Source: Maribacter aquimaris (GTDB lineage Bacteria; Bacteroidota; Bacteroidia; Flavobacteriales; Flavobacteriaceae). Taken from it: a stretch of DNA of 64,000 nt. The DNA lies in NCBI RefSeq assembly GCF_014596745.1, contig NZ_JABTCF010000002.1:124001-188000 (forward strand). Direction: 5' to 3'. The notes beneath the pieces were generated by a model. That model saw only the letters and a list, made by a program, of their open reading frames with translations, did no database searches and was not told the origin of the DNA. A program made the translations under genes and the position numbers. Each line of letters starts with the position of its first letter. The first letter of the stretch is position 1. Below are positions 33,881 through 62,994 of this stretch, one piece after another.

Positions 33881-33935
33881 ATATAGCATTTAATAGTAAG
33901 CCAAATTACAAAAATTAGATTTCACTTGATTTAAT

Positions 33936-37881: not shown

Positions 37882-38748
37882 TTATTTTGAAATTTTAATG
37901 GAATACAGGTTGCCGCCCGAATTTCCCCTTACTTCATCAGAGAGCAACAAAGTTTCATTATCCAAAAAACTTATAGATTCCAATTGGGTCGAGATTCCTA
38001 GGTCAATGGTCTTCATTTTTCCCTTAGAGAAATCGTCCAATTCAAAGGCAGAGAACAACCATAACTTGCCATATCCCAATAAAGCAATGGTAGATCCATC
38101 GGGGGAAATATCCGCGGCTGTGACCCTGCATTCCCCTTCTTGTTTACATGTAAAAAATTCACCTACGGACGCTGCTTTGTACGTTCCGGGCTTTGCCGGG
38201 ACTTTATAGATCGAGGCTATCCCCGTAAAAGGTTTTGTCCTGTTTTTGGAAATGATATAAAAGGCATCGTTATAATGGAAAAAGGCCTCGGCATCAAAAT
38301 TCATTTCGACTTTTGAAGGGGGGAATTCCTTTTGGTTCGGATAACTGAATTTTATTTTTTCGGCCTTTATTTTTTTGCCTTTTGCTATCTCAGGATTTGG
38401 GATTTTATAAATGGTAAGGTCTTTTCTTTTATTGTCGTTATTCCCGAAATCCCCAATAAACACATTTTGGTTTAAGTCCTTTGTCAGGTCTTCCCAGTCT
38501 TCGTTATGGGCGTTGTCAACTTTTAGTTCCCGAAGCAGGTTTCCTTGAAGGTCTACTTGATAGATTAAGTTCTTGTTGCCATGATCCTCAACCAACCAAA
38601 CTAGGGAGTCGTTCAGGGTAACCATACCCGAATTCTCTTTTAGTTTTTTTGGAAGCTTTGCCACATAGGTGAGCTGACTGTAGTTGGCACAACTGTTGAG
38701 CAAACATACTGAAAGCAGGGTTATTGGTAATTTCCACATTTCGTTCAC
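37882..38748 (-). CDS. Predicted beta-propeller lipoprotein (SdiA-regulated-like)
   Basis: 288 residues from a GTG that overlaps the stop of the haloperoxidase-type gene (GTGA); an ATG three codons later (38739) is the alternative. The lipoprotein signal ends in LLNSC (Cys20). The chain shows repeated beta-strand blocks (NSGMVTLNDSLVWLVEDHGN, NVFIGDFGNNDNKR, GSTIALLGYGKLWLF, ESISFLDNETLLLSDE), typical of a propeller of the SdiA-regulated or phytase-like type. No catalytic residues are assigned. It is translationally coupled to the upstream enzyme and probably serves the same envelope process. Confidence 0.7.
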   Translation of the reverse strand: MNEMWKLPITLLSVCLLNSCANYSQLTYVAKLPKKLKENSGMVTLNDSLVWLVEDHGNKNLIYQVDLQGNLLRELKVDNAHNEDWEDLTKDLNQNVFIGDFGNNDNKRKDLTIYKIPNPEIAKGKKIKAEKIKFSYPNQKEFPPSKVEMNFDAEAFFHYNDAFYIISKNRTKPFTGIASIYKVPAKPGTYKAASVGEFFTCKQEGECRVTAADISPDGSTIALLGYGKLWLFSAFELDDFSKGKMKTIDLGISTQLESISFLDNETLLLSDEVRGNSGGNLYSIKISK

Positions 38749-40097
38749 TTCGAAACCAAATCCTTATCAGTGGTCATTTTTAATTTTTGCAGATGAAATT
38801 GGCCAAGATCACTCCCTTGTTTAATACCGACCTCCACGGCCGCCCTATAATGGATGCCACCGTACATTCTGCTGTATGCAGCCTCCGTAGCGGCTTGGTT
38901 AAAAGAGGTAAAGCTTCTAATGGGGAGGCCGTAGGGTACTTCGGAATCATCATCAAACGCGAAATCATCACCAAAAATATCGGTTAAGGCCGCAGACGCG
39001 GCTCCAGAGACGACGCTATGTCCACTAGTGTACTCAGGAAAAGGAGGCGTTTGTAATACGGGCTTCCAATCCTCATCCAAGTGTTGGTTGATAACGGTTT
39101 CGGGCCGTATTAGGTTACTTCGGTATTTTTCCGCCCAACAACTTATAAAGGCATCTGCTATCGCCATAGAGGTTTTGGTATAGGCATAAACCGTTTGGTC
39201 AAAATCACTATTGGTTTTTCTACTGGCTATTTTGGCAATGCCAAGCCAATGTGCCCCTGGGGAGATTTTCTTAGTGGCAAACATTAAGTGGCCCCGGGTA
39301 ACCGAAACATAAGGGTTGCAATCCCAGAATTGGGCCATTTTGATTTCTTCGGATTCATCACCCTTTTTTGTTATTTCATTTCCTATATCGTAAACTTCCT
39401 TCATTTCCTTATAAAAAGCAGAGCCTTCTTCCAATGAGAATTCCGGTGGCGGTATGGGCTTGAACTGTTGGGCGGAATCCAAGACAAAAGGGCGGATCTT
39501 ATCCCAATGCGGTTCAATACCATCCATGTAGGCCGGTGGGGTGGGTTGCCAACGTGTCTCGTCATCGGTGTCTACCGTAAACTTAGGCATGGTCCGGGTT
39601 TGATTGTAATTGTCTTTGTTCATCCATTTAGCAATATGGTCGGCAACTTCCAATCCATAGTCCTTGGATGCCAAAAAGGTAGTTTCATTTTTATCCTTCC
39701 AAACATTGTAAAGACTATCCCTGAGCACTTCTAAATCCTGTTCTGAGAAAATCAATTTTTTACTCAGTTCCATATGGGCTACCAACGCGGCCAGTTGATA
39801 ATTGATAGGTTTGTTGCCGTCTGGTTTGGGAATGGCCGTAAGTTCCTTTACTTGGCCTTCCAAAGAAACATATTTATCATTGTTTAGCGCAATGATCTCA
39901 TAGGCTGCAATATTAGGGTAGGCAAAAACCCTACTGGCCACAGGGGGTGAGAAAATATCGTGGATCATGATTTCGGTAACCCTATCCACTGAGGCATGCA
40001 ATTCTTCTGGACTTATGACCAAAGGTTCTTCCATTTTTTTATCAACGCAGGAAACAAGAAGCGTGATAACGGTCATTAAGGAAAAAAATCTATTCAT
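38745..40097 (-). CDS. Vanadium-dependent haloperoxidase / PAP2-type lipoprotein
   Basis: 450 residues. Lipoprotein signal ends in LLVSC (Cys17). The vanadate/phosphate-binding residues of the PAP2-haloperoxidase superfamily are all in place: Kx6RP in KYRSNLIRP (Lys324, Arg331), TSGH (Ser358, Gly359, His360) and SRMYGGIH (Arg410, His416). The Asp usually found four residues after the last His is Ala here. It either oxidises halides with peroxide or is an acid phosphatase; sequence alone does not decide. A decayed paralogue lies 3 kb away (43027-43623). The next gene overlaps its stop codon. Confidence 0.9.
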   Translation of the reverse strand: MNRFFSLMTVITLLVSCVDKKMEEPLVISPEELHASVDRVTEIMIHDIFSPPVASRVFAYPNIAAYEIIALNNDKYVSLEGQVKELTAIPKPDGNKPINYQLAALVAHMELSKKLIFSEQDLEVLRDSLYNVWKDKNETTFLASKDYGLEVADHIAKWMNKDNYNQTRTMPKFTVDTDDETRWQPTPPAYMDGIEPHWDKIRPFVLDSAQQFKPIPPPEFSLEEGSAFYKEMKEVYDIGNEITKKGDESEEIKMAQFWDCNPYVSVTRGHLMFATKKISPGAHWLGIAKIASRKTNSDFDQTVYAYTKTSMAIADAFISCWAEKYRSNLIRPETVINQHLDEDWKPVLQTPPFPEYTSGHSVVSGAASAALTDIFGDDFAFDDDSEVPYGLPIRSFTSFNQAATEAAYSRMYGGIHYRAAVEVGIKQGSDLGQFHLQKLKMTTDKDLVSK

Positions 40098-40120
40098 TAT
40101 TTTTCAATTTTCAATTGGAG

Positions 40121-40142
40121 TCCCATTAGACTTTCAATGGGA
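40121..40142. repeat. Short inverted repeat upstream of the haloperoxidase-type gene
   Basis: TCCCATT (40121-40127) and AATGGGA (40136-40142) with an 8-base loop, 24 bases upstream of the start codon. It could be an operator or leader hairpin; function unknown. Confidence 0.3.
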
Positions 40143-40319
40143 TAGTTTAGCAATTTAAAAAATCCCGATGGACTTGAAATATAGAAAATGTTAATATTTC
40201 AATCAAGCTTTCCGGTATAGTACAATAATCCATATAATAATGACCAATAACCAAGGGAAACATTTGAAATAGTCAAAACCATGTACCTTAAGAATAGTTA
40301 TTGGATTTTGGAGGTCTTC

Positions 40320-41972
40320 CTATTTCCAAAAGAGACTGTACAAGACCACCAAAATCAGCATGACCGCAAATGCACCAATGTTGAATGTAGGACTGGTCTT
40401 GAACAATGCTTTGGTCAAAGGAATTCCTTTTTCGTCATTTTTCCCATGATGTTGGATAAGACTTACCGTTGCAATAACAAGCATGGTCAATATTAGCGTA
40501 TAACCCATTTGATCCATAAAAGGAATATCCACGAATAGTGGATTGGTTGACCATCCTTTGGGTCCTACCTTAAAAAACATGGCGATGGGAATGGATGCCA
40601 ACGCACCGATAATAGCACCTTTGTTGGTTGTTTTTTTCCAGAAAAGTCCCAATAAGAATACTGCAAGGATACCAGGACTTACAACCCCCGTATATTCTTG
40701 GATAAATTGAAATGCTTGGTCGATACCTCCCAATAAAGGTGCCATTATACCGGCAATCAATAGGGCAACCCCGGCGGAAATCCTTCCGGTTGTTACGGTG
40801 GCCTTATCACTTGCGTTTTTGTTGATGTATTGCCTGTATATATCCATGGTGAAAATCGTGGACGTAGAGTTGAGCATGGAAGCTAGGGAGGACACTATGG
40901 CGGCAGCCAAGGCTGCAAATGCGATACCTTTTAATCCGGTCGGTAGAAATTGGAGTAGCCAAGGATAGGCTTTGTCGGCTTGACCCAGTGAAGGTAGGTT
41001 ATGCTGGGCTACATCACCCAAACGGGCCATTATTTCAGGATCATTGATGATAACGTAAGCGGCAATTCCGGGAATGACCACGATCAAAGGAAGTATTAAT
41101 TTTAAAAAGGCAGCCAATAGGATCCCTTTTTGGGCTTCCTTCAACGATTTGGCCGCTAACGTACGTTGAATGATATATTGATTGAATCCCCAATAATAGA
41201 GATTGGCAACCCATAAACCTCCGACAAGAACGGCAATACCAGGCAGGTTCCTGTATTCTGGATGTGATTCGTCCAAAATCATTACAAATCGTTCCGGTGC
41301 GGTTTCATATACTATTTTAAAACCTTCAATGACGCCTTCCCCCCCCGAAACAGTATTTAAGGCCAAATAGGTAGTGACCAATCCACCGAGAATCAAAAAA
41401 ACCACTTGTATAACATCGGTCCATGCAACGGCGGAAAGACCACCATAAAGTGAATAGGCGGCTGCGAAAAGGGCAAGTCCGATGACACCATAAAGCATGG
41501 GGATACCCATTATCGTTTCAAGAGCCAAAGAACCTAGGTATAGAACGGAAGCAAGATTGACAAATACATAAAGACCTATCCAGAAGACAGCTAAAATGGT
41601 CTTTAAGTTTGTGGAATATCTTTTTTCGACAAACTCAGGAATCGTATATAATCCCTTCTCAATAAAAACAGGGAGAAAGAACTTGCCGACTATGATCAAG
41701 GTCAAAGCCCCCATCCACTCATAGGAGGCAATCGCCAGTCCTGAAGCAAAACCCGAACCCGACATACCGATGAACTGCTCGGCGGAAATGTTCGCAGCGA
41801 TCAAAGAGGCCCCGATGGCCCACCAAGGCAAGGATTTACTAGCGAGGAAGTAGTCTTCCGCATTTTTTTGATGGCCCTTTTTGTCCCTTGAGACCCATAG
41901 GCCAACACCAAGTATTAATAGGGCGTATGAAATAAATATAAAGTAATCCCAAAATCCGAAAGCTGAAGTCAT
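40320..41972 (-). CDS. Sodium:solute symporter (SSS/SGLT family)
   Basis: 550 residues with about 14 transmembrane helices. Family features include GASLIAANISAEQFIGMSG in the first unwound helix region and ALAAAIVSSLASMLNSTSTIF, the sodium-site helix with its Ser/Thr-rich motif. SGLT-type sugar transporters of Bacteroidota have this length and a similar C-terminus, so a sugar or related polyol is the likely substrate; this is inference. Located in the all-minus block between a GyrI-like gene and the haloperoxidase-type gene, with a long upstream region holding 10-bp direct repeats. Confidence 0.9.
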   Translation of the reverse strand: MTSAFGFWDYFIFISYALLILGVGLWVSRDKKGHQKNAEDYFLASKSLPWWAIGASLIAANISAEQFIGMSGSGFASGLAIASYEWMGALTLIIVGKFFLPVFIEKGLYTIPEFVEKRYSTNLKTILAVFWIGLYVFVNLASVLYLGSLALETIMGIPMLYGVIGLALFAAAYSLYGGLSAVAWTDVIQVVFLILGGLVTTYLALNTVSGGEGVIEGFKIVYETAPERFVMILDESHPEYRNLPGIAVLVGGLWVANLYYWGFNQYIIQRTLAAKSLKEAQKGILLAAFLKLILPLIVVIPGIAAYVIINDPEIMARLGDVAQHNLPSLGQADKAYPWLLQFLPTGLKGIAFAALAAAIVSSLASMLNSTSTIFTMDIYRQYINKNASDKATVTTGRISAGVALLIAGIMAPLLGGIDQAFQFIQEYTGVVSPGILAVFLLGLFWKKTTNKGAIIGALASIPIAMFFKVGPKGWSTNPLFVDIPFMDQMGYTLILTMLVIATVSLIQHHGKNDEKGIPLTKALFKTSPTFNIGAFAVMLILVVLYSLFWK

Positions 41973-42004
41973 GTTGGTTGTGGTTGGTTTGATTTTATTT
42001 GGAA

Positions 42005-42054
42005 ATCGATTAAATTAAACGAAGTATCAAAATAACTGATTTTTATCGATTAAA
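42005..42054. repeat. 10-bp direct repeats upstream of the SSS symporter gene
   Basis: ATCGATTAAA occurs at 42005-42014 and again at 42045-42054, exactly 40 bases apart (about four helical turns), 33-82 bases upstream of the symporter start. Spacing and position suit a pair of regulator-binding sites, but no regulator is identified. Confidence 0.35.
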
Positions 42055-42124
42055 CATATGAATCTTTTATGTTTTCTATTTAATCTTTCATAAGTCGGAC
42101 TACCCTGTAAGAAAAGCCAGACTA

Positions 42125-43021
42125 TTATTTGATTAAAGGTAAATAAACCTCGGTTTTCCATCTGAGTGCATCCCCACCCATATTGGGGTTATTGTGGAAA
42201 ACTTCAACAGGTAATGCCTCTATCTTTAAATTTTTATTTTTGGCGTAATCCAATAAGGCATACCAAGCCCTGTCTGAGGTAATATAATTGCCGTAATATT
42301 CAGCTTTGATTGCCTTTTGGGAAGGGAAGTTCTTATAGGTTAATTCTGGGTGTTGTGGTAATGTTTCAGGTTTTATAATTGGATAACAAAAGTTAAATGT
42401 TATACTGTCTTTAACCCTATCCCAATAGGTGATTTCCAAAAAGGGTCTGCCATTTAATTTCAGTCCATTTTTCACAAGAAAACCATCCAATAAAGGAAAG
42501 TCTTTCATCATGCCTCTTGCTTTGCCAAACTGGGTTGTCGTTTGAGTGGTACAAGCGCAATAAGTTGAGTTGATTTCTTCCTCACCAATTATCTTTACTT
42601 TGAACTGGGAAATATGTTCGTTCAATAATTTATTAAAATCAATTAAGTTTTTTCGAGTTCGTTTTTCAAAATCGGTATCTGAAAATGGTATAGCTAGCTT
42701 ATTCTTAAAGCTATGTTCAAAATCTTTAGCATATACCTTCACATTTGAGGTTGAGTCTGTTTCAGGAATAATATTCCATGTATAAATATGGATGGAATCC
42801 CCGAATTGAAATTGTTGTTTCAACTCCAATAAATCTTCGTTGCCACTTTCGAGTAATTCTGAATTATCACTGGTACTACTCCAAGTCTTGATCATTTGAT
42901 TAATCGGTCCAGGAAATGTTTTGGCCTTGAAATTAACCTGATAATCGTGAGGTTTGATGAATAAATACCAAATAGTGGTTCCGATAAGGATGATTCCTAT
43001 ATAAAAAATGATTTTCTTCAT
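42125..43021 (-). CDS. Membrane-anchored GyrI-like effector-binding domain protein
   Basis: 298 residues. An N-terminal hydrophobic segment (IIFYIGIILIGTTIWYLFI) anchors it. Residues ~25-130 resemble an SRPBCC/START-like domain (FPGPINQMIKTW, FGDSIHIYTWNI). Residues ~145-298 are a GyrI-like/AraC effector-binding domain, with AIKAEYYGNYITSDRAWYAL and a closing RWKTEVYLPL. No DNA-binding domain is present, so it is not a classical regulator; small-molecule binding is likely. It lies immediately downstream of the haloperoxidase remnant. Confidence 0.8.
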   Translation of the reverse strand: MKKIIFYIGIILIGTTIWYLFIKPHDYQVNFKAKTFPGPINQMIKTWSSTSDNSELLESGNEDLLELKQQFQFGDSIHIYTWNIIPETDSTSNVKVYAKDFEHSFKNKLAIPFSDTDFEKRTRKNLIDFNKLLNEHISQFKVKIIGEEEINSTYCACTTQTTTQFGKARGMMKDFPLLDGFLVKNGLKLNGRPFLEITYWDRVKDSITFNFCYPIIKPETLPQHPELTYKNFPSQKAIKAEYYGNYITSDRAWYALLDYAKNKNLKIEALPVEVFHNNPNMGGDALRWKTEVYLPLIK

Positions 43022-43026
43022 TTCTT

Positions 43027-43623
43027 TTAAGTTGATTTAAAATATTGATTTGAATTCATTTTAAGATTGTTCCTGTTGAATATCCCAAAATTCCCGTGTT
43101 TTTCATCCCAGCATTTGGAAACTGCTATTGTATGGTTTTTATGTACATAAATTTTCTTATCGAAGGAGGTGTCACTGCTTTCGGCAATATTCATCCCCAT
43201 GTCATGGACATCCTTGGATGCTTTGTGGAAATCTGTTCCTTTTTTCATTGAAAATGGGAGGATGGTTAAAATTGACTAAGGGAAACTATTGCATTCAGGT
43301 ATATTTTATTTCAATGGTTTTGATGCCATTCATGAATGCTGGCGGTGTTGGTTGTCGTCTAGAAAAACCATTGGTGCCCCCCCCGAATATTTCGGCATCC
43401 TAAGGGTTTGGTCAGAATTGTCAGTATTCATCCATTTGTTTTGAAGAACATTGACTGTTATGGCATATTCCTTAGGGTCATTGACCGGTTCCAAATTGGT
43501 GTTGCTCCAAACCCCATCAAATCTATCCCGTAAGGTTGTTGTCCTTTCTTTAGGTATAAACACGGACTTGCTAATATTGTTATAAACTATTAAAGTAGTT
43601 AATTGAGGATTTATGTTTTTCAT
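43027..43623 (-). pseudogene. Decayed haloperoxidase/PAP2 paralogue
   Basis: Broken minus-strand remnant of a protein like the intact enzyme at 38745-40097. In order, with frame shifts and an in-frame stop, it aligns with intact residues ~98-265. NINPQLTTLIVYNNISKSVF matches NYQLAALVAHMELSKKLIF; LRDRFDGVWSN matches LRDSLYNVWKD; NKWMNTDNSDQTLRMPK matches AKWMNKDNYNQTRTMPK; PTPPAFMNGI matches PTPPAYMDGI; and GTDFHKASKDVHDMGMNI matches GSAFYKEMKEVYDIGNEI. The N-terminal signal region and the whole catalytic C-terminal half are missing. It starts 12 bases after the FG-GAP gene stop, so an intact copy once probably followed the FG-GAP pair directly. Confidence 0.85.
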
Positions 43624-43634
43624 ATTTCTGTCAA

Positions 43635-46600
43635 TTACTTTATCAATCCATATACTTGAATACTGTCATTATTTATGGTTACCAATAAATAATCCCGATT
43701 GTTCCAGTTTATGATATTCAGATGTCGTACGGACTTTAGGGTTAAATCCAAGCCAAGATTATCTCCTAATGCGATATCATTTTTGCTTTTAACCAAGGCC
43801 CCGGAAAATGAATCAAATCTGCCATGAAAAGGTTTTACACCAAAATAGTTACCAGCCAAAAGAGCTTCTTTTTTACCATCAGAATCAAAATCGAATATTA
43901 ACATGGCTGTTATTGGGGAGACTTGTAACATGTCAGTAAAGGGGACGAATGAATAATTGCCGTTGTTATTTTCAAGATACCCGGAACGCAATTCATTAAC
44001 TTCAAGAACAGTTGCCTTGTTTAAAGTTTTACTATCCCAGATTTCATCAATCGATTTTCCCGCGAAACTATAATATGTGACGAATTTTTTTCTAAGATAC
44101 TCCATTTGGACAGCCAAGGCATCCAACCCTTCAATAGGATAGTATTTCCCATTTTTCTCTATGGCGACAATAGTTTCAGTACTTCCATTATCGTCTATAT
44201 CATCATAGTACATTTTCATCGGCGATTTTTCCGAAGCTTTGAATTTGCTATTGGCCCCCCAATTCCCTAAAAGATAATCAATATCCCCATCTTGGTCGAT
44301 ATCGAAAGGTGCGATACTCTGCCAAAGACCGTTCAATTTTTTGTCTAGGAGGCTCACTTGGGATAATTCCCCATTCTTGTTTTTGAAAAATTTTGGTGAC
44401 ATCCATTCCCCTATCACAATAAGGTCTTTTACCCCGTCATTATCAAAGTCATCCCATAAAGCATCGGTAATCATACCAGCATGTTGAAGCTCTGGATTGT
44501 CGACAATGGTAAAGTTTCCTTGGTTGTTTTTTAAAAGATAGGAATTAGGGGTTTTAGCAAAATCATTGGTAATCACCTGATTCCCCAAAAACAGATCTAA
44601 ATCTCCATCCCCATCATAATCATAAGGCTTAAGTGTAGAAGCGTTCTCAAAATATACAGGTAAGGGTTGATGCTCAAAACCATCGTTTTTTTGAGTGTAA
44701 TAACTATCGCTTAAAGGTTTCATTTGACCATAAAAATCAGCTCCACCAGTTCCTATAAACAAATCTGGTTTGTGATCCGAATTAAAATCCTCTATAACGG
44801 CGCTAATATCTTCTTTTACAGAATCCTTTGCGATTTCCATTATCCTTCTTTCTACAAAAGCTGAATCTGTTTGAAAATAAATTTTAGACGAGTGGAACTT
44901 TGATCCTCCAAAAAAGATGTCATCCTTATTGTCATTATTTAAATCACCAATTGCCGTGGCAGGTCCCCGATCGGAAAGTTGGTACGGGATTAATTTCTGT
45001 CTGTTGAAATCTATATAATTATCCTCGATATGGATAAAATCTACACCTAGTTTGTCTTCTATTTTATTGAACAGCTGTTTGGCCTTAGGGTTTAATGAGG
45101 CGTAATCAAATGGTGCTGTGTTTTCTGGCGTAATCGTAATGGTCTTGTTTAGGCTTACGTTTTTTACCACCTGATAAGACTTGTCTGGCCATATTATTTT
45201 TAACGAATCGACTTTATTTGCTATACCATACCCAAAATGGATTATAGGTTCAGAGGAAGCTTGAAATCCTCGAGCGGTATAGAGCTCTTTATATTGTAAT
45301 TTACCTTGATCGTATGAAAAGACTTTAGTTCCAATCCCGAACTTATTGGGTTTTTTATAATTGAACTTTATCTTAAGGTAATTGGCATTTGCATTGGTCT
45401 TGTTGATATATACCGTCGCGGGGAGATTAATGTTATTGGTTACAATATCGATATCACCATCCAGGTCCAAATCTCCAATGGCCGTTGCTCCAGAGATTAT
45501 TGTATCGTTGACTATCCAATTGGCCGACATGTCCTCAAAATGTAGATTTTCATTCCCTTTGAATATATAATTATGTACAGCTCCTGAGGGCATCATATCC
45601 AATGCTATTGGGTCAACTAATTTTGTGTTATTGATTTTAGTCCTGATTTGGTCATTAGAGAGGAAATTAATATAGTCAAGATCGTTAGGGCGTTTAGGAA
45701 TGCCATTGGCAATAAAAAGGTCTTGTTCTCCATCCTGATTGTAATCCCCAAACAAGGCACTCCAACTCCAATCTGTCGCTGCTACACCGGACATTAAGGC
45801 AATTTCCGTATAGGTACTATGGGGTTGGTTCAAAAATAGCATGTTTCGTTCAAATTGATAGTGATATCCAAAACGTTCAATTTTCATTTTTTGGATCTGT
45901 ATATCAGTGCTGTTTTCTGAAGATTTCAATACTTTTTCGTCTTCTGGAAGCATATCCAATGAAATGATATCTGGCCATCCATCATGATTGATATCACTCA
46001 CATCATTTCCCATTGAAGAGCGGGTGGTATGCCCAAAATACTTTTTTAAACTCTCGGTAAATGTTCCATCAGTGTTGTTGATATAATAATAATCATCTTC
46101 TTGGAAATCGTTGCCAACATAAATATCCGGAAAGCCATCTTGGTTGAAGTCGGCTACAGCGACACCTAGTCCATAACCATTTATACCTCCATAAATACCC
46201 GCAATTTCACTGACATCGGTGAATTTTCCATTATCATTTCGAAGAAGTTTGTCACCTGCCTGAAAATTTCTTTTAAGTCGTATGTTGGAGTTTCCGAAAG
46301 ATTCCTGGGTGTGTATCGCATGGTTGAGTAAGTATATATCCAAATCACCATCCAGGTCATAATCAAGAAAAGCTGCGGAAGAACTGTAGGTATCATAATC
46401 GAGACCATATTCTGATGCACTTTCGGTAAACGTTGCATTTCCATTATTTATATAAAGTTCATTGTAACCATTGAATCCTTTAATGCCTACAACCGCACAT
46501 ACATAAATATCCAATAATCCATCACCGTTGACATCGCCCATTATTGCCCCAGTGTTCCAGGTGCTATTGCCCTCTACACCCGCAGAAAGCGTAATATCTT

Positions 46601-46886: not shown

Positions 46887-49800
46887 TAATGGTAAATATT
46901 TTTGGTTTACTATCATTTATAGCCGCAACTAGGTAGATTTTACCCTTTTTATCCTTGAATTGTCTTAAATGTTTTATCTCCTCCCGAACGAACAATCCGC
47001 TCATGTTGTAATCTTGCCATTCAAAACTTAATTTCCCATCACCTAATAGGATACTACCATAATTGGCATCCAATCTAGAATATTGCGGTTTAAACTCAAA
47101 GTTGTTGCCTCCCAAGATTAAATCTAAATTACCATCATTATTGACGTCTGTACATGTAATACCACATACGCAGGAGAGTTGAACCTTGTAGGGTAGTTTA
47201 ATAATCGTGAATTTGCCACCACCATCATTGACAGCGATTACGGATTCGGAAATAGAGGATAATTTTACAATTGAATTTTGAATTATTTCATTTGAAAACA
47301 ATTCATTGACTGTTTTAATCGCATATTCCGAGGCTCTTAAATTCTGTTTCTTTAACAATGTAATTTGCTGGGTCAATTCTTTTTTCTGATGTATGGGATA
47401 ATCCTTCCCATCAATATTTTGCGTTACGATTTGCTCAATGGTGCCATTGTTATCAAAATCGTTGATCCACATTTTCATCGGATTTTGTATCGAAGGTTTA
47501 TAGTGTAGGTTGTTTCCTTGGTTCCCTAAAACGAGATCTTGATCCCCATCACCATCCAAATCAGCGGTTTCAACAACATTCCACATACCATAAAGGCTAT
47601 CCAATGAAGTCTTTAATAGGGACAGGCGCCTACCAGAGTTTTTATAGATTCTCGGGGTTCCCCATTCAGAAACGGTTACAAGGTCTTTTATGCTATCCCC
47701 ATCGATATCGGACCATGATGCATCTGTAATCATACCGGCATCTTTTAAGTCATATGCCAGTCTTTCTGAAGCATCTGTAAAGGTGCCTTTGCCATTGTTT
47801 TCCAAGAAAAGATGATTAGGGTCAACCCCATAGGTACCTACAACACTTCTTGAGCCAATAAATACATCGATATCTCCATCAGCATCAAAATCGAAAGGAT
47901 TTATTGTGGATATGTTCTTAAATGTAGAGGGAAGTTGTTGTGTTGATTTTTCAAAAACACCTTTGCCATTGTTCAGATATAATCTGGCACGATAAGTTTG
48001 TTCTTCACCAACTTGATTACCACCAGATCCAATCATTAAATCCATATCATTATCTCCATCTACATCAAAGAATGCGGCAGCAGTATCTTCATATGTTGCA
48101 TCGGATGATAATGCAGGTTGTTTACTGGGACTTAATTTTCCGTTACCAGAATGTTTGTATACAACACCTGGCATGCCTTTAGCACCTCCAATGAAAACGT
48201 CTTCATTTCCATCCCCGTCAACATCTGCTACCGCCAGTGAGGGACCTTCCTGAGAGAGTAATTTATTGATCAGGCCTTCATTGTCAAAGTCACGGTAATT
48301 GTTTTCCTTGTGGGTAACCAGGGGTGCATTTGACAATTCCTTTAACAGAGGTTTGATGTTATTTTCCTTTGTTGGAGTATACTTTCCGGTAGCTTCCGAA
48401 ATTTTTAGATTAAGGGTTTGATTCGTATTTATCGAAAGCAGCTTTTGTGTGCTGTCATCTGGCCAAATAACCCTGATAGAGTCCAATACCGCAATATTTC
48501 CTAAACCTATGGTCATTCCATAATCCATTGAGGATTGAAATCCTCTAAACGGATTCAACTCTTGTAGGAATACCTTGTCTTCGGCATAAAGTAGAACCGA
48601 AGTGCCTACCGCAAATTTATTCTTGTCCGATCCTTCAAAATGGATTTTTAAATACTTGTTCGTTAGCTGTTCATTGGTTTTGTTTTCATAGACAAAAGCT
48701 TGCATATTAACATTGTTGACCACAATATCGAGATCCCCATCATTATCAAGATCCCCATAGGCAGCTCCGTTTGACATGCTTGGTTTTTCAAAACCCCAAT
48801 CAGAATTGGCGTTGGAAAACGTAATATCGCCATTGTTCTTATATGCGTAATTAGGTTGGGGTCTTATGGGCATTTTATTGATAATGGAATCTATTGATTC
48901 CTCTTTACCCGTCAATACCATCCTTTGAATGATCTTATTCGCAAAAAAATCAATAAAATCCAAGTCGGTAAGATCGTGATTAATGCCATTGGTAATATAA
49001 ATATCCCGCAATCCATCATTGTTCATGTCAAACAACAATCCTGCCCAACTCCAATCAGTGGCATCAACGCCGCTATAATAGGCGACTTCTGAAAATGAGC
49101 CATTACCGTTATTTAGTTGTAGTGTATTTTGTATGTATTGCTGATAAAAATCCTTACTCTGTTTTAATTTATAAACATTGTATCCTTCGAACTCCATTAC
49201 CGCCTTTACGCGTTTGTCTTCTTCCGGCAACATATCCGTAATAAAAATCTCAACATTGCCATCATTATTGATATCGGCCATATCCACTCCCATTGCGGAT
49301 AACGATAAGTGGGAAGTCCATTTCTTGATTTCTTCCCTGAAAGTTCCATCTTGATTGTTTATGTATAAATAATCCCTTTCATAAAAATCATTGGAGACAT
49401 AAATGTCAGGATATAGGTCTTTGTTCAGGTCAGTTATGACTACGCCCAGCCCAAAACCGATAAGGCTGCCATAGATTCCTGCTTTTTCGCTGACATCAAC
49501 GAATTTTCCATTATCATTTCTCAATAGCATGTCGCCAACACCTTTAAAAATATCCGGAACACCCTCCCAATCCTGAGCCCTAACTTCTCGTTGTTCTGCA
49601 TAGCCTAAGCTGCTCACCGGGATATTGCTATTGTTCAAGATATATGCATCAAGGTCCCCATCCTTGTCGTAGTCAAAAAAAGTGGCATGTGTAGAAAAGC
49701 CTGTTTTAGCTAAGTTGTATTCATTTGCTTTTTCAGTAAATGTCAAGTCCCCATTATTAATATAAAGGTCATTATCATGATTGTTACCTTTCATGTTTCC

Positions 49801-50238
49801 GGCATTACTGACATAAATATCCAAAAGGCCATCCTGATTAATATCGACCATGGCGACACCGGTAGACCATGGTTTGTTGCCTACGACACCTGCTGCCAAA
49901 GAGATGTCCTCGAATTTAAGATTGCCTTTATTCAGATATAGTTTGTTGTCTCCCATATTGGCGGTCATGTAAATATCCACGAGACCATCATTATTGATAT
50001 CGCCAATTGCAACTCCGCCCCCGTTATAAAAATTGCGGTATTTGAAGATGTTGAAATCTTTCTGATTTTTCACTTCATTTATAAAATCAATTCCAGTTTT
50101 CTCAGAGGAAAGTAATGAGAATAGTTTATCGTCCTTACTGTCCTTACCTGGATCCACTTTTGCCTTAGTGGTACAAGAAACATATAAAAAAAGTAATATT
50201 AAAAAGCTTACTACTTTAAGGATTTTTTGTTTTGTCAT
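46879..50238 (-). CDS. FG-GAP/VCBS repeat lipoprotein with ASPIC/UnbV domain (first of a pair)
   Basis: 1119 residues, lipoprotein Cys22 (LFLYVSC). Same plan as its neighbour: FG-GAP blades with DINNDGLVD, DINQDGLLD and DYDKDGDLDAY loops, then ASPIC/UnbV (~535-620; KFAVGTSVLLYAEDK, FRGFQSSMDYGMTIGLGN, RVIWPDD), then further FG-GAP blades (DVDGDGNEDVFIGG, DFDADGDIDVFIGS). The two proteins align along their whole length but are clearly diverged, so the duplication is old. An exact TAnnTTTG element (TACTTTTG on the minus strand) lies 41-49 bases upstream, so the pair can be transcribed apart from susCD. Confidence 0.88.
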   Translation of the reverse strand: MTKQKILKVVSFLILLFLYVSCTTKAKVDPGKDSKDDKLFSLLSSEKTGIDFINEVKNQKDFNIFKYRNFYNGGGVAIGDINNDGLVDIYMTANMGDNKLYLNKGNLKFEDISLAAGVVGNKPWSTGVAMVDINQDGLLDIYVSNAGNMKGNNHDNDLYINNGDLTFTEKANEYNLAKTGFSTHATFFDYDKDGDLDAYILNNSNIPVSSLGYAEQREVRAQDWEGVPDIFKGVGDMLLRNDNGKFVDVSEKAGIYGSLIGFGLGVVITDLNKDLYPDIYVSNDFYERDYLYINNQDGTFREEIKKWTSHLSLSAMGVDMADINNDGNVEIFITDMLPEEDKRVKAVMEFEGYNVYKLKQSKDFYQQYIQNTLQLNNGNGSFSEVAYYSGVDATDWSWAGLLFDMNNDGLRDIYITNGINHDLTDLDFIDFFANKIIQRMVLTGKEESIDSIINKMPIRPQPNYAYKNNGDITFSNANSDWGFEKPSMSNGAAYGDLDNDGDLDIVVNNVNMQAFVYENKTNEQLTNKYLKIHFEGSDKNKFAVGTSVLLYAEDKVFLQELNPFRGFQSSMDYGMTIGLGNIAVLDSIRVIWPDDSTQKLLSINTNQTLNLKISEATGKYTPTKENNIKPLLKELSNAPLVTHKENNYRDFDNEGLINKLLSQEGPSLAVADVDGDGNEDVFIGGAKGMPGVVYKHSGNGKLSPSKQPALSSDATYEDTAAAFFDVDGDNDMDLMIGSGGNQVGEEQTYRARLYLNNGKGVFEKSTQQLPSTFKNISTINPFDFDADGDIDVFIGSRSVVGTYGVDPNHLFLENNGKGTFTDASERLAYDLKDAGMITDASWSDIDGDSIKDLVTVSEWGTPRIYKNSGRRLSLLKTSLDSLYGMWNVVETADLDGDGDQDLVLGNQGNNLHYKPSIQNPMKMWINDFDNNGTIEQIVTQNIDGKDYPIHQKKELTQQITLLKKQNLRASEYAIKTVNELFSNEIIQNSIVKLSSISESVIAVNDGGGKFTIIKLPYKVQLSCVCGITCTDVNNDGNLDLILGGNNFEFKPQYSRLDANYGSILLGDGKLSFEWQDYNMSGLFVREEIKHLRQFKDKKGKIYLVAAINDSKPKIFTINE

Positions 50239-50279
50239 GTTTGTTATTTGCGCTTTTTAAACAAATTATTTTTTGTATT

Positions 50280-50287
50280 CAAAAGTA
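50280..50287 (-). promoter_or_regulatory. Candidate -7 element of the FG-GAP pair
   Basis: TACTTTTG on the minus strand, an exact TAnnTTTG match, 41 bases upstream of the first FG-GAP gene's start. No -33 element is visible. Confidence 0.3.
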
Positions 50288-50773
50288 TTTTAATGACCAA
50301 TTATATTAATATTTATATTCTAAATATTGAAGTTTTTATATACGGTCTGATTTCATTAAAATTATGGGTTAAAATCCAATGAATTCTTATTTAGGACATT
50401 TCGTAAATTTACTGTTCTTAAGGTTTTTATCCTACTTGAAAAGGGGCTAATTTGGTGTGAAATCCCAATATTTAACTCATTGTGTCAACCAAGTATCAGA
50501 GTTATGGAACCTGATGCATACCCAGTTAAATAAAACATTGGAAGCGAAAATCCTTAGGCTATCGATGAATGTTGATCATTTGTTCATAGTACATAACGGA
50601 TCGTTGAAAATCAGTCTTTTTCCAAAAGTGATTTTTAAAAATCGTGTAGCGTTCTTTTGACACCGACTTATCAAAGTATTCTAAGTTATAAAAATCGATC
50701 GATGCCAAGAACAAAGAAAAGGCTCGATGGTTTTCGATTGAAGGAAAGCTATACATGCAGGGTGGTCATAAGC

Positions 50774-50805
50774 AAAAAAACCCCGACGCTAAACGTCAGG
50801 GTTTT
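50774..50805 (-). terminator. Terminator of the susCD unit
   Basis: Hairpin CCCTGACG/CGTCGGGG on the minus strand (50781-50801, one U-G pair, five-base loop), extended by A-T pairs and followed by seven T on the minus strand. It sits about 20 bases after the susD stop. Confidence 0.85.
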
Positions 50806-50825
50806 ATTATTGTAATGGATAAATA

Positions 50826-52415
50826 CTAATACCCTGGGTTTTGTACTAAGTTTGGATTGGCTAGTACATCAGCAGTTGGTATGGGAAATATCTCTAAATG
50901 TGCGTCACCAGCATCTTTAAGATTCCATGCACGCAAGTATTGACCGAATCTAATAAGGTCTTGCCTTCTTGCCAATTCTTGGTATAATTCTCTACCTCTT
51001 TCTGCCAATAATTCTGCCTCACCGGCTGAAGCTAAATCTTCAGCTCCTCTTAAACTTCTTAGGTCGTTGATCATTGTTGTTACATCACTTCCCATTCTAT
51101 ACATAGCCTCGGCTTTCATTAGGTAGGCATCAGCATATCGATATCTAATAAGGTGTCTTCTGCTAGCTCCCCCTTCTTCATTAGGGTGATATTTTAACAT
51201 TCTTATTCCAGAAGTTTCCAATAGGGCATTATCTCCGGGAGCTGTATACTCTGTTTTCTCAACTTCTCTAGTAAAGACCAAAGGAACACTACCTACTTCT
51301 GCTCTTGCGGTCAACGGTGTTCCGTCTTGTTCATATTGTTGGCCAATTAGGAAGCCATACCCAATACCAAGATTATCCGCATTTGCCGTTGTGGCATCTG
51401 GCACCCATCCTCTTCGTTCTTCTTGTCCGTCACCTACATAATTGGTATTAGGATCCCCTTCAAACGAATCATAGAATTCTGAGAGCGTAGCAAAACCATT
51501 CCAACCACCACCAGTATTGTCGGGGGAGTTAAGGTTGTAATGTAGTGTATGCCACATAGATGGCCCTACATCAGCAGGGGACCACCAAATAGTTTCTACA
51601 TCATTACTAGGTCTAAAGATGTCAAAGAAGTCTCCAGCAGCTGCTAGTGTATAGTTATCTGCGGTAATTTCATCTACTGCGTTAATGACAACTTGCATAT
51701 CTGTATCTTCTGGGGATGATCCTAAATAGATATGTTTGTTTAAATAGAGTTTGGCCAATAACAGGTTTGCTGCAGCCTTGGTAGGTGCTGATTTTAAACC
51801 AATAGCATCGCCGGCAGTCACTGCAGGAAGATCTACTAGTGCAGCATTCAGGTCTGCTGTTATAAAATCTATCGCAGCTTGCCCAGTTAACACCTCTGGA
51901 ATTTCACTATTGGGTAAATCAACATCCCTAAAAGGGACTTGTCTCCACATATCCAGTATCCAAGTCATAGCCCAAGCTCTATAAAACCTTGCTTCAGCCT
52001 TTAACTCAGTTACGTCGCCACCGGCAGTACTTACACTTTTCTCATTAATAACACGGGTAGCATTAATAGTTATACTGTTAAGCTCCTGCCAAGGTTTAAC
52101 TATATCCGCAAGTTCCTCGTTCCATGTCTGTTTATGTATAGACAACCACCTGCCATTATCACCCCAATCGGTTCCTCTGGTAGGCACCATGTATTCATCT
52201 GAAGAAACTTCATTCAAAGCAAAAAGGCCTTCTTGATTTGCAAGATTTCCTCCAGCAATAATGTTAGAAATATTTGCAACCTCACCTTCAACATTGGCAA
52301 CACCTGCAAAACCCTCGCTAATCAACGAGTCTGTCCCTTCTATTTCCAAATCGGTACAAGAAAAAATCAAGACGATTGGGAGCGTTAGACACATATAATT
52401 TACTATTTTTTTCAT
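50826..52415 (-). CDS. SusD/RagB family outer-membrane lipoprotein
   Basis: 529 residues, lipoprotein Cys20 (LIFSC). Helical SusD fold with TPR-like segments: KAEARFYRAWAMTWILDMW, KAAANLLLAKLYLNKHIY and RYRYADAYLMKAEAMYRMG are the usual landmarks, and the C-terminus IPTADVLANPNLVQNPGY is typical. It binds the ligand at the cell surface and caps the SusC channel. Located 17 bases after susC in the same unit, and followed by a terminator. Substrate is not evident from sequence; the neighbourhood has no polysaccharide lyase or GH on this side. Confidence 0.95.
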   Translation of the reverse strand: MKKIVNYMCLTLPIVLIFSCTDLEIEGTDSLISEGFAGVANVEGEVANISNIIAGGNLANQEGLFALNEVSSDEYMVPTRGTDWGDNGRWLSIHKQTWNEELADIVKPWQELNSITINATRVINEKSVSTAGGDVTELKAEARFYRAWAMTWILDMWRQVPFRDVDLPNSEIPEVLTGQAAIDFITADLNAALVDLPAVTAGDAIGLKSAPTKAAANLLLAKLYLNKHIYLGSSPEDTDMQVVINAVDEITADNYTLAAAGDFFDIFRPSNDVETIWWSPADVGPSMWHTLHYNLNSPDNTGGGWNGFATLSEFYDSFEGDPNTNYVGDGQEERRGWVPDATTANADNLGIGYGFLIGQQYEQDGTPLTARAEVGSVPLVFTREVEKTEYTAPGDNALLETSGIRMLKYHPNEEGGASRRHLIRYRYADAYLMKAEAMYRMGSDVTTMINDLRSLRGAEDLASAGEAELLAERGRELYQELARRQDLIRFGQYLRAWNLKDAGDAHLEIFPIPTADVLANPNLVQNPGY

Positions 52416-52432
52416 AATTGTTTTTTTGTTTT

Positions 52433-55400
52433 TTAAAAGGTAACGTTTAATCCAAAACTAAATGTTCTTGGTCTTGGGTAGGAAAGATAATCTATCGCAG
52501 CAGATGGTAATCCATTTGCAGGGATGTCAGAAGTACTAACCTCTGGGTCTAACCCACTATAATCAGTGATTAAAAACAGGTTCTGTCCAATGGCGCTTAA
52601 ACGCATACTTTTGAACATTCCCGCTCCGCTTAAAGGCACATTGTAGGAAATCGATGCCGTTTGAAGTCTGACAAAGTCTCCTTTTTCCAAGAAGAAGGTA
52701 CTTGGGTTCGTTGCGGATAAGATAATCCCATTGTCAACAACACTTTTTAAATTATTCCTATTTCCTATCTGAGGCGATGCAAAAAGTGCATTAGCCGTAT
52801 TATTATATACATAAAAGCCAAATTGACCTGAGAAAAACAAGGAAGCATCCCAGTTCTTGTAATTTACACTAGTAGATAATCCACTAATGATTTTTGGGAG
52901 CCCGGATTTATCCAGTATGGTAGGATTGGCATCTACATTGTAATTTTCATCTACCAAACGAAGGTTATAGGTATACAATGGCTTTCCGTCTGTTAAGACT
53001 TGGGAAGTACTACCAGAAAGACCTTGGCCGTATAAATTACCCGCTTGTATATTCGGACCATTGTAGTCGGTAAGTTCATTTTCGTTGTACGAGATATTAA
53101 AATTAGCATTCCAGTTGAGATTTTCAGATGCTATAATATCATAATCCAGCCCCAATTCTATACCTTGATTTACGATAGTACCATCAACGTTTTGGAAAAC
53201 GAAAGGGGAAGTGGCTGGCTGCACTGCGGGTAGATTTAAAAGGATATCCGTTGTCTCTTTTCTATATACATCGATATTCGCGGTAAAGCGGTCATTGCCG
53301 AAACCAAAGTCAATACCGAAACCATATTGTGCAGTCTCTTCCCATTTAAGATCGGGGTTCGCAAAAGCAACCTCGGAGGTAGCAGGTTCAGACAGTAGGG
53401 AACCGGCATCAATTCCTAGCTGTTTCCATCTTGTTCTGTTGACAAAATTACCATAGCCAAGACCATCTTGGTTACCGGTAATACCCCAGCTTAGTCTTAG
53501 CTTAAGGGTAGAAAAAACTTCTTCATTTATAAAATCTTCCTGATTTAGTTTCCATGCAAAAGCCGCAGACGGAAAATATCCATATTGGTTATTGCTACCA
53601 AATTTTGAAGAACCATCAGCCCTAAAGGTGGCCGTAAACAAGTATTTATCATACAGCGTGTAATTCATTCTTCCAAAAAACGATTGTAACTCGTCTGTAT
53701 TGTCAAAGGTATCTACTGAAAAGGCATCGATTGGAATATTAGGTAAACTTTCTGTGTTTTGGTTAATATTCGGAAACAGTCCCAATGTTCTGAATTGATC
53801 TCCAGCAGCCGTATCGTCTTGGAAGGTTCCTATTCCATAACCTTGGTAATTGCTTGCAAGATTTTGGGTGGCATCATAGGTTTGTTCAGTAGAACTTACG
53901 ATTCTGTTTAAATCAGATGATCCATAGCCTTGCCCCAGAATATTTTGACCACTTCTATTGAAATCTTGAAAAGAATAACCTACAAGCAAGTCCAAATTGG
54001 AATTTTCAAATTGTTTCTTGTAGTTCACTGTGATCTCCATCAAATTGTTTTGGGTATCCAGATTACTGACTGCTGACTTTCCATTATTCTCAGCACCATT
54101 ATCAAATGCAAGAATTTGAGGGCCTACAACTTGGCCCCTTGTGGATTCTGATGTGTCAACTCCTAAATTTAGTTTTGCAGAAAGTTCGTCTGTAAAGGAA
54201 TAATCGAAAGATATATTCCCAAGAAATCTATCCGTATGGGTGTTGTCGTCGTAATAGGCCAAAAGGTTTGCTGGATTTCTGTCCGGTGCAGCACTAGAAT
54301 TTGCATTTGCATTCCTCGTAGGATTGGAGTAATAGGCGGCAGCTAATAAATCCCCGGTACTTCCTGATGTTCTACTAATGAAAGGAGCATGGTCATTTAT
54401 TCTTGAAATAGTTGTTTGCACACCAACCTTTAACTTGTCATCAAAGAATCTCTGGTTCCAATTGATCCTGCCCGTGACACGTTCTAAATCTGTGTTTTCA
54501 ATAATACCAAATTGTTTGGAATATCCGAAGGTAGCCCTAATGTTTCCAGATCCGTAATTTCTGGAATAAGACAAGTTATTGTCCGTTGATGCACTAGTCC
54601 TGAATAAAAAGTCTTGCCAATCGGTTGCACCACCGAGGTTAGCACCACCTGCGGCAATGAATTCTTGCGTCGTTAAAAGGTCATAACGGTCTGCAGCCTT
54701 AGAAATATTCAAGGTGCTGGAAAAGCCCCATTGTCCATCTGTTCCACCACCTTTTCCGGATTTTGTTGTAATAACCACAACACCGTTCGCTCCTCTAGAA
54801 CCGTAAATGGCAGTAGCGGAGGCGTCCTTAAGAATACTCATGCTTTCAATGTCACTGGGGTTCAAGAAATTCAACGGGTTTTTAGAGCCACTGGTTCCGG
54901 CTCCAACATCCGCACCACTTGCGGAAACACTTTCATTGGAAACAGGAACACCATCAATGACAAACAATGGGCTGTTATTACCTCTAACCGATCCAGTACC
55001 TCTTATTCTCAGCGCTATACCTGCACCAGGTTCACCACTGGACTGTGATATCTGGACTCCGGAGGTTTTACCTTGAATCAACTGTTCAGGTGAGGAAATA
55101 ACACCTTGGTTGAAATCTTTGGAGGTAACTGAGGAAACAGAGCCGGTTGCATCTTTGACCGTAGTCGTTCCATAACCGATTATTATGACCTCTTCCAATG
55201 CCTGGGCATCTTCAGCGAGCGTAACAACGATATTGGTTTGTCCGTTTACAGCTATTTCCGTAGTACTGAACCCTACATAGCTAATGACCAAAGTGGCATT
55301 TTCACCAACGTTGATGGTGAAATTACCATCAAAATCGGTTTGGGTTCCGTTTGTTGTCCCTTTTTCGACAACACTTGCCCCTGGTAAGGGACCATTGGCA

Positions 55401-55495
55401 TCCGAAACTGTTCCGGATACCTCCTGAGCCTGTGCCCATCCAAAGCAAATAAATGCCCCGACAAGCAGTAAGCTGCGAAGTAATGTAATCTTCAT
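52433..55495 (-). CDS. SusC/RagA family TonB-linked outer-membrane receptor
   Basis: 1020 residues: signal peptide ending in GWAQAQ, a carboxypeptidase-regulatory-like domain (EVSGTVSDANGPLPGASVVE, residues ~25-110), a TonB box-like segment (EEVIIIGYGTTT), plug domain, and a 22-strand barrel ending in RPRTFSFGLNVTF. The plug contains the family signature SILKDASATAIYGSRGANGVV. It imports the ligand bound by SusD using TonB. A perfect 16-bp palindrome lies 93-108 bases upstream, between this gene and a divergent LacI-type regulator, so repression or activation by that regulator is likely. Confidence 0.96.
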   Translation of the reverse strand: MKITLLRSLLLVGAFICFGWAQAQEVSGTVSDANGPLPGASVVEKGTTNGTQTDFDGNFTINVGENATLVISYVGFSTTEIAVNGQTNIVVTLAEDAQALEEVIIIGYGTTTVKDATGSVSSVTSKDFNQGVISSPEQLIQGKTSGVQISQSSGEPGAGIALRIRGTGSVRGNNSPLFVIDGVPVSNESVSASGADVGAGTSGSKNPLNFLNPSDIESMSILKDASATAIYGSRGANGVVVITTKSGKGGGTDGQWGFSSTLNISKAADRYDLLTTQEFIAAGGANLGGATDWQDFLFRTSASTDNNLSYSRNYGSGNIRATFGYSKQFGIIENTDLERVTGRINWNQRFFDDKLKVGVQTTISRINDHAPFISRTSGSTGDLLAAAYYSNPTRNANANSSAAPDRNPANLLAYYDDNTHTDRFLGNISFDYSFTDELSAKLNLGVDTSESTRGQVVGPQILAFDNGAENNGKSAVSNLDTQNNLMEITVNYKKQFENSNLDLLVGYSFQDFNRSGQNILGQGYGSSDLNRIVSSTEQTYDATQNLASNYQGYGIGTFQDDTAAGDQFRTLGLFPNINQNTESLPNIPIDAFSVDTFDNTDELQSFFGRMNYTLYDKYLFTATFRADGSSKFGSNNQYGYFPSAAFAWKLNQEDFINEEVFSTLKLRLSWGITGNQDGLGYGNFVNRTRWKQLGIDAGSLLSEPATSEVAFANPDLKWEETAQYGFGIDFGFGNDRFTANIDVYRKETTDILLNLPAVQPATSPFVFQNVDGTIVNQGIELGLDYDIIASENLNWNANFNISYNENELTDYNGPNIQAGNLYGQGLSGSTSQVLTDGKPLYTYNLRLVDENYNVDANPTILDKSGLPKIISGLSTSVNYKNWDASLFFSGQFGFYVYNNTANALFASPQIGNRNNLKSVVDNGIILSATNPSTFFLEKGDFVRLQTASISYNVPLSGAGMFKSMRLSAIGQNLFLITDYSGLDPEVSTSDIPANGLPSAAIDYLSYPRPRTFSFGLNVTF

Positions 55496-58783: not shown

Positions 58784-58824
58784 CTGTTTTGGATTGTATT
58801 AAAAAATGAAAGTACTCTAGAAAA

Positions 58825-62876: not shown

Positions 62877-62942
62877 GTTTTGTAGTTAATGATTCGAATA
62901 ATGGTAAAAACCCAATTTTTTAATACCTAGGGAAAATAAGGT

Positions 62943-62972
62943 AAAAAGGGCTGTGTTGAACAGCCCTTTTTT
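62943..62972 (-). terminator. Terminator between SusE-like and amylase genes
   Basis: Perfect 11-bp stem AAAAGGGCTGT/ACAGCCCTTTT (62944-62970) with a five-base loop. T-runs lie on both strands. It follows the SusE-like stop and precedes the amylase start, so the amylase genes may get only part of the upstream transcripts. Confidence 0.85.
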
Positions 62973-62994
62973 TAAAAATTAAATTTGAGACTTA

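Follow-up and report, generated by a model that had tools for sequence, protein, structure and literature searches.

The closest described relative of the enzyme treated here is zgVIPO1, an iodoperoxidase of Zobellia galactanivorans with solved structures (4CIT, 4USZ), which is said to be strictly iodide-specific. To our knowledge, the physiological role of the bacterial vanadium iodoperoxidases is open, despite one crystal structure. Two other kinds of described systems come close: the polysaccharide utilisation loci of Bacteroidota, with their SusC/SusD pair, LacI regulator and sugar symporter, and the CRTAC1/ASPIC-UnbV proteins, with their FG-GAP_3 and UnbV_ASPIC domains. A single locus of Maribacter aquimaris has something of all three. 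It lies in a stretch of 64,000 nucleotides (assembly GCF_014596745.1, contig NZ_JABTCF010000002.1, positions 124,001 to 188,000 of the forward strand), called the window below, and it consists of nine elements, all on the minus strand: a SusC and a SusD, two large FG-GAP/ASPIC proteins (FG1 and FG2), the remnant of a vanadium haloperoxidase (VHPO) gene, a GyrI-like protein, an SSS symporter, an intact VHPO and a beta-propeller protein (Table 1). A preliminary description had proposed this arrangement, and sequence and structure comparisons bear it out at each of the nine places. With a confidence somewhat short of even, we favour the reading that this is a conserved flavobacterial operon in which a vanadium iodoperoxidase is tied to the machinery of carbohydrate uptake, so that iodide oxidation at the cell surface would be coupled to sugar foraging.

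The VHPO of the window is similar to zgVIPO1 over its full length. A search against solved structures matched the two (438 residues, E 4.7e-236) with 76% identity over the aligned chain, and the vanadate-binding K, R, S-G-H, R and H are all in place in a KX6RP-SGH-SRX5H motif. Our alignment comprised 135 VHPO-type sequences, zgVIPO1 included, of which 115 are close relatives (91 high-scoring and 24 mid-scoring); the positions K, R, S, G, H, S, R and H, which we take to be the vanadate site, are invariant in 115 of the 115. The earlier proposal of a vanadate haloperoxidase-type enzyme is thus upheld. The closest homologs of zgVIPO1 itself, the VHPOs of loci L093 (87% identity) and L023 of Zobellia barbeyronii (85%), form one clade with it in the tree (support 1.0), and both are encoded in the same type of locus as that of the window, in the order FG-VHPO-GyrI. 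The window VHPO is 89%, and FG1 97%, identical to the counterparts in M. polysiphoniae (L016).

The window departs from this canonical order: its VHPO gene is displaced. Judged by alignment, the element between FG2 and the GyrI-like gene is a true VHPO remnant in the canonical VHPO slot, and the intact gene is a displaced copy behind the vSGLT-like symporter whose counterpart in that slot has decayed; the intact and decayed copies of the preliminary description were therefore correctly recognised. The remnant aligns to about residues 92-340 of VHPO and keeps a degenerate CWDEK motif, the first of the vanadate-site motifs, with its Asp; no SGH or SRX5H motif was found in it. This Asp, which stands beside a conserved Trp, is present in 84 of the 91 high-scoring sequences, including zgVIPO1, and it is not known to define the family. 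A change to Ala at this position is seen in the displaced Maribacter-type copies (L016-L018 and the window) and also in the canonical L020, that is, in four others of the 91 besides the window. Because of this Ala, the activity of the displaced copy may be different from that of zgVIPO1. The whole genome (4.86 Mb) has 12 UnbV_ASPIC matches and four PAP2 matches, three of the latter in frames of 197-280 residues and one in a frame of haloperoxidase size.

The locus recurs across Flavobacteriaceae in the order SusC-SusD-(FG0)-FG1-FG2-VHPO-GyrI-propeller. The VHPO protein, used as query against named genomes, found 55 loci in 16 named genera, Maribacter, Zobellia, Kriegella, Allomuricauda, Robiginitalea, Flavobacterium, Aquimarina, Galbibacter and Sinomicrobium among them. 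The VHPO gene lies directly between an FG gene and a GyrI gene in 46 of the 55; the other nine comprise four with the order SSS-VHPO-propeller, three with FG-VHPO followed by another gene or by none, and two without labelled neighbours. An FG gene adjoins VHPO in 49/55 and is found within five genes of it in 53/55. SusD is labelled in at least 19 of the 55, which is a lower bound because many of the loci end too close to FG1, and in some loci other genes lie upstream of FG1 (e.g. L019, L030-L032). The FG-VHPO pair was also seen in a metagenome-assembled genome labelled Rhodothermaeota (L067).

Two broader draws of genomes were searched. Of 148 genomes drawn order-wide, eight have a VHPO above 600 bits. 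The second draw, of 249 genomes of the family, was searched with VHPO, FG2 (E<=1e-250) and GyrI (>=120 bits); 94 of these genomes hold between them 95 VHPO copies that score 550 bits or more. On the same strand and no more than 6 kb away, FG2 accompanies 69 of the 95, GyrI 68 and both together 64, and 22 have neither; the FG2 gene is the direct upstream neighbour (<=200 bp) of 67 and the GyrI gene the direct downstream neighbour (<=200 bp) of 65. Seen from the partners, a VHPO of at least 300 bits is present in 70 of the 72 genomes that have a GyrI ortholog; one lies within 6 kb of 69 of the 72 GyrI places and of 70 of the 80 FG2 places (Fisher tests, p 2e-29 and 9e-35, uncorrected for the kinship of the genomes). 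GyrI is mostly confined to the close VHPO clade, being near only one of the 24 mid-scoring copies. Nineteen of the 22 copies with neither ortholog were fetched. In 14 of them FG genes came into view on the same strand, though L075 shows no more than a weak 34-bit piece at the end of a contig; in several of these loci an FGGY-type kinase, a xylose isomerase and a symporter separate FG from VHPO. The preliminary description named a lack of conservation in related genomes as the result that would speak against a single locus, and what the scans returned is a conserved neighbourhood.

The association also holds for less similar VHPOs, up to a limit. All 24 copies at 300-550 bits (model score 400-700) were fetched, and FG is adjacent in 16 and within five genes in 18. 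From the 24 copies under 300 bits, 20 were fetched: the five with a model score of 160-400 all have FG adjacent (SusC-SusD-FG-VHPO-FG where the locus is not cut), and the 15 distant VHPO/PAP2 homologs scoring under 160 have no FG gene adjacent (0/15) or within five genes. The 15 distant homologs are an internal negative control from the same genome sample and the same fold family, and on their account we dropped chance as an explanation of the VHPO-FG neighbourhood. One distant clade (L131-L135) has the order SusC-SusD-FG-VHPO-short FG and an Asp after HX3, as in PAP2 phosphatases; it looks like a second VHPO-FG system. Packing across L016-L150 is tight, with median junctions of 11 bp for SusC-SusD (n=37), 156 for SusD-FG (n=33), -8 for FG-FG (n=119), 5 for FG-VHPO (n=92), 2 for VHPO-GyrI (n=62) and -8 for GyrI-propeller (n=25). 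The overlapping reading frames of FG1 and FG2 mentioned in the preliminary description do exist, by 38 bp when the longest start is used, but such a junction is ordinary in these loci. The window version looks looser than those of its relatives because of the 587 bp between SusD and FG1, with a terminator-like hairpin, the 152 bp between GyrI and the symporter and the 222 bp between the symporter and VHPO; its susC and susD are adjacent, 17 bp apart. Locus L095 shares the divergent LacI, the SusC and the SusD as well as the symporter (82% identical), and its VHPO gene stands in the canonical slot.

FG1 and FG2 carry FG-GAP_3 repeats and a UnbV_ASPIC domain, both well over the curated cut-offs, and each has 14 calcium-type DxDxDxxxD motifs, where composition shuffles average about 0.6. 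The structure of cartilage acidic protein 1 (9etn) matches FG1. Unlike CRTAC1, the FG proteins of the window are about 1100 residues long, have repeats on both sides of the ASPIC domain, are predicted lipoproteins and are recurrently paired with VHPO and SusCD. In some VHPO loci a small protein of about 190 residues is encoded between the FG genes (L018:775-1368, L067:2787-3353, L082:17222-17800); no Pfam match was found for the L018 and L067 copies.

The SusCD pair was compared with profiles of the module, that is, of the conserved gene set, the SusD profile being built from 18 module sequences with the window and L068 left out, and the SusC profile likewise without the window SusC. The window SusD scores 498 bits, within the 494-772 bits of 16 other module SusD proteins (two of these, L065 and L069, had been used to build the profile); the SusD of L009, from the starch-type locus nearby, scores 180, those of other FG loci or distant VHPO loci at most 68, and L112 is intermediate at 239. 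Similarly, the window SusC scores 607 bits with its profile against 363 for L009, 377 for L014 and 350 for L010; truncated module SusC proteins score lower. Since these scores are far above those of the starch-locus pair, SusCD is, by profile comparison, of the module's own type, as the preliminary description had it. Orthologs of the window SusD at 75-77% identity sit in the module loci L068, L090 and L094. Its best solved match is the starch-locus SusD 3ck7, at only 71 bits. The same genome has two SusCD-FG loci which are similar in joining SusC-SusD with FG-GAP/ASPIC genes (L010 5633-18995, with a 512-residue protein without Pfam match; L014 7859-17972, with a fasciclin protein) but differ in having no VHPO and a SusD of only 64-68 bits to the module profile. 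The SusCD-FG pairing thus exists more widely than the VHPO loci, and it looks like a platform with exchangeable partners.

Lipoprotein signals give a hint of where these proteins are. With a simple lipobox pattern devised for this analysis, a lipobox was found in 108/114 VHPO, 184/201 FG, 41/43 SusD and 42/44 propeller proteins, and in 0/67 GyrI-like proteins. Acidic residues after the lipoprotein Cys mark surface export in Bacteroidota. At positions +2 to +6 after the Cys, the mean number of acidic residues is 1.1 for VHPO, 1.15 for FG and 2.0 for SusD, and 0.05 for the propeller protein. Because of this difference, a surface position is probable for the VHPO and FG proteins, alongside SusD, and improbable for the propeller protein.

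The remaining members of the locus were compared with solved structures and models. The window symporter matches the sodium/glucose cotransporter at 803 (2xq2) and 750 bits (3dh4) versus 101 bits for the sodium/iodide cotransporter 7uuy, and on these scores a sodium/iodide symporter was dropped as a reading of the gene. The AlphaFold model of the GyrI-like protein (pLDDT 92.7) has an N-terminal helix at residues 2-22 and a confident soluble part; because of this helix and a basic N-terminus, the protein would face the periplasm. Foldseek places the GyrI domain nearest to those of CTR107 (solved with rhodamine), CtaZ (with closthioamide) and EcmrR. The propeller lipoprotein has no Pfam family at E<=0.001; its model (pLDDT 90.2) is almost all beta after the signal helix, and its top Foldseek matches are beta-propellers (TM 0.4-0.5). 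For the protein P0001 there was no solved relative by sequence below E 0.3.

The connection with carbohydrates comes from the neighbours. The core of the window locus, iodoperoxidase and FG-GAP/ASPIC proteins, sets it apart from the polysaccharide utilisation loci, and no carbohydrate-active enzyme is found within its nine genes. The preliminary description concluded from this that it was not a standard polysaccharide locus; the conclusion is not supported, since glycoside hydrolase (GH) family 13 genes are next door across the LacI gene and hydrolase or other sugar genes lie beside the module in some relatives. These include a sucrose-symporter-like MFS protein (TIGR01301, below cut-off), GH100, a PfkB kinase, a GH37 trehalase and a sucrose-phosphorylase-like GH13 (just below cut-off) as well as GH97, GH13 with a SusG C-terminal domain, arabinofuranosidase, GH43, GH2, sulfatase, FGGY kinase and xylose isomerase, and they vary by lineage. 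Of 108 FG-linked loci, 65 have a sugar-related label no more than 7 kb away (48 when symporters are set aside), and so do four of 12 VHPO loci without FG and two of 15 control loci (symporters only); the counts are descriptive, because the labels were picked from recurrent neighbours. The GH97, GH13, trehalase, invertase or xylose genes next to it in relatives link the locus to carbohydrates.

How such an operon could work may be pictured as follows. SusCD would import a sugar or oligosaccharide, and the two or three FG-GAP/ASPIC lipoproteins would make a calcium-rich surface scaffold beside it. The VHPO lipoprotein would sit with SusD and the FG proteins, possibly in a physical complex, and convert H2O2 and iodide to hypoiodous acid or iodine at the feeding site, a reaction that could both clear algal or metabolic peroxide and damage competitors. 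From an inner-membrane anchor, the GyrI-like protein would reach into the periplasm and there bind or clear aromatic or electrophilic by-products, and the symporter behind it in the window would take up a glucose-type sugar. We infer the surface location, the complex, the source of peroxide, the substrate and the purpose of the reaction; most likely, the VHPO uses peroxide to oxidise iodide on the cell surface as an aid to sugar uptake. Physiological work bears on this only indirectly. In Arenibacter C-21, of the same family, iodine uptake depends on glucose, oxygen and calcium, the glucose can be replaced by a system that generates peroxide or oxidises iodide, and at least five zgVIPO1 homologs are encoded in the genome (PMC5064120). 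As far as the accessible parts of two other reports go, vIPO3 of Zobellia is induced on fresh Ascophyllum versus alginate (PMC9296495), and the Zobellia enzyme is placed as an iodoperoxidase (PMC13198595).

Several observations weigh against this coupling of iodide oxidation to foraging. The terminator-like hairpin after SusD may split the transcripts in the window genome; with the gap that follows, it suggests that SusCD and the FG genes may be transcribed separately there. The window enzyme has Ala in place of the Asp of CWDEK. Of the 95 close VHPO copies, 22 have neither an FG2 nor a GyrI ortholog nearby, and among the 19 of these that were fetched, five have no FG gene in view (L071, L073, L081, L086, L089); 43 of the 108 FG-linked loci have no sugar-related label within 7 kb. 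The annotated genes of the module and its flanks, which were not supplemented by a genome-wide search, include no peroxide-forming oxidase or halide transporter. Finally, the loci are present in many Flavobacterium species, several of which come from fresh water, ice or soil, where iodide is scarce.

Among the other explanations, the one that survives best, while still unlikely in our estimate, is the handling of phenolic glycosides: the hydrolases and transporters would use the sugar, the released phenol would be oxidised or iodinated outside by VHPO, and whatever enters the periplasm would be captured by the GyrI-like protein. The relatives of the GyrI domain point to an aromatic ligand, its orthologs are almost exclusive to VHPO loci, and the sugar genes differ between lineages; no phenol-specific gene was recognised among the annotated neighbours, however, and the mid-scoring VHPO copies nearly all do without GyrI. 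Iodine acquisition, in which SusCD and the FG proteins would take up iodinated organics or the iodine made by VHPO, with the sugar genes as mere neighbours, would agree with the peroxide-dependent iodine accumulation in Arenibacter C-21 (PMC5064120). We consider it quite improbable in view of the starch-type best match of SusD, weak as it is, the vSGLT-like symporter and the recurrence of sugar genes beside the module.

A little less probable again is a surface phosphatase, which would free sugar from phosphorylated substrates before uptake. The PF01569 family is shared with acid phosphatases, and the window VHPO has the KX6RP-SGH-SRX5H motif. Against a phosphatase stand the 76% identity to zgVIPO1, reportedly specific for iodide alone, and the HX3D motif, the phosphatase-type signature, the Asp of which is Ala in 89 and Ser in two of the 91 high-scoring sequences. 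That SusCD is part of the neighbouring starch locus and only by accident next to the FG-GAP genes is very improbable: the GH13 and SusE/F genes beyond LacI, the hairpin after SusD and the best NCBIfam model of the window SusD (starch SusD, below cut-off) can be cited for it, but L009 carries a separate SusCD for the starch-type locus, the module profile scores the window SusD far above the L009 SusD, and orthologs of the window SusD sit in module loci. An accidental grouping of the nine genes with a starch-locus SusCD was accordingly rejected by the conservation and profile tests, barring a horizontal replacement of the pair.

Table 1. The LacI gene and the elements of the VHPO locus in the window, with the evidence for each.
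Feature	Position	Strand	Evidence or remark
LacI-family regulator	55829..56869	+	PF00356/PF00532; divergent from susC
SusC-type TonB-dependent transporter	52433..55495	-	TIGR04056, 670 bits
SusD-type surface lipoprotein (predicted), module's own clade	50826..52415	-	PF07980
Terminator-like hairpin after SusD	50777..50805	-	13 pairs, 6 G-C, T tail
FG1, FG-GAP/UnbV_ASPIC lipoprotein, 1119 residues	46879..50238	-	PF13517, PF07593; lipobox C22
FG2, FG-GAP/UnbV_ASPIC lipoprotein, 1093 residues	43635..46916	-	PF13517, PF07593; lipobox
Decayed VHPO remnant between FG2 and GyrI	43022..43634	-	tblastn best E 1e-21; stops in all three frames
GyrI-like protein, N-terminal membrane anchor	42125..43021	-	PF06445, 30 bits, cut-off 26
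vSGLT-like Na+/sugar symporter (SSS)	40320..41972	-	PF00474; 2xq2 803 bits, 3dh4 750 bits
Intact vanadium iodoperoxidase homolog (VHPO), lipoprotein	38745..40097	-	PF01569 (PAP2), 40.3 bits, cut-off 27.2; 4CIT/4USZ match
Beta-propeller lipoprotein	37882..38748	-	AlphaFold and Foldseek; follows GyrI or VHPO in relatives

Some other features of the window deserve mention. The starch/maltodextrin-type locus next door spans 56927-63984 of the window and 407-12155 of L009; the window part has two GH13 genes (56927-58783 and 59526-62876), a gene for an fn3 protein and SusE/F (62995-63984), and the L009 part has SusD, SusC and LacI. On the other side of the VHPO locus, 32702-33889 (minus strand) encodes an HD domain joined to PycTM, the Pycsar effector transmembrane domain (PF18967, E 1.5e-37), and 33936-37643 (plus strand) encodes an unusual fusion, in which a calcineurin-like phosphoesterase is followed at the C-terminus by a weak ShlB-type match (PF03865, below cut-off). 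Their families occur in 23 and 24 of 56 compared stretches, respectively, the window included. A scan for sigma-70 promoters gave 56 sites against a shuffle mean of 63.8 and thus no excess, a result without weight, since the promoters of Bacteroidota differ from the sigma-70 pattern.

Our literature search, the coverage of which is thin for subscription papers, found no description of a VHPO-FG-SusCD operon; within the same coverage, from which most subscription papers are absent, no paper joined FG-GAP with SusD and ASPIC, or FG-GAP with SusC and TonB-dependent. The accessible portions of the literature on haloperoxidases and polysaccharide utilisation loci describe no such operon, those of PMC10643221 contain nothing on the locus, and those of PMC2668756 mention FG-GAP and SusD separately.

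The recurrent partners of the VHPO in 16 named genera point to nutrient uptake at the cell surface as the place to look for the role of the iodoperoxidase. It is possible, though we would not call it probable, that SusCD, a calcium-binding propeller scaffold and the iodoperoxidase make up an "iodine-armed" uptake machine in one operon, combined with varied sugar pathways (xylose, sucrose/trehalose, alpha-glucans, arabinan); iodide oxidation would then be a foraging trait tied to sugar supply instead of the work of a free-standing enzyme of stress or halogen metabolism. Such a system would link the sugar foraging of flavobacteria with the microbial iodine cycle, between which no connection was found in our literature search. 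The locus also places the abundant FG-GAP/ASPIC lipoproteins of Bacteroidota, and a membrane-anchored GyrI-like protein, in a genetic context, and its fixed row of genes is a testable lead on the purpose of bacterial iodine oxidation.

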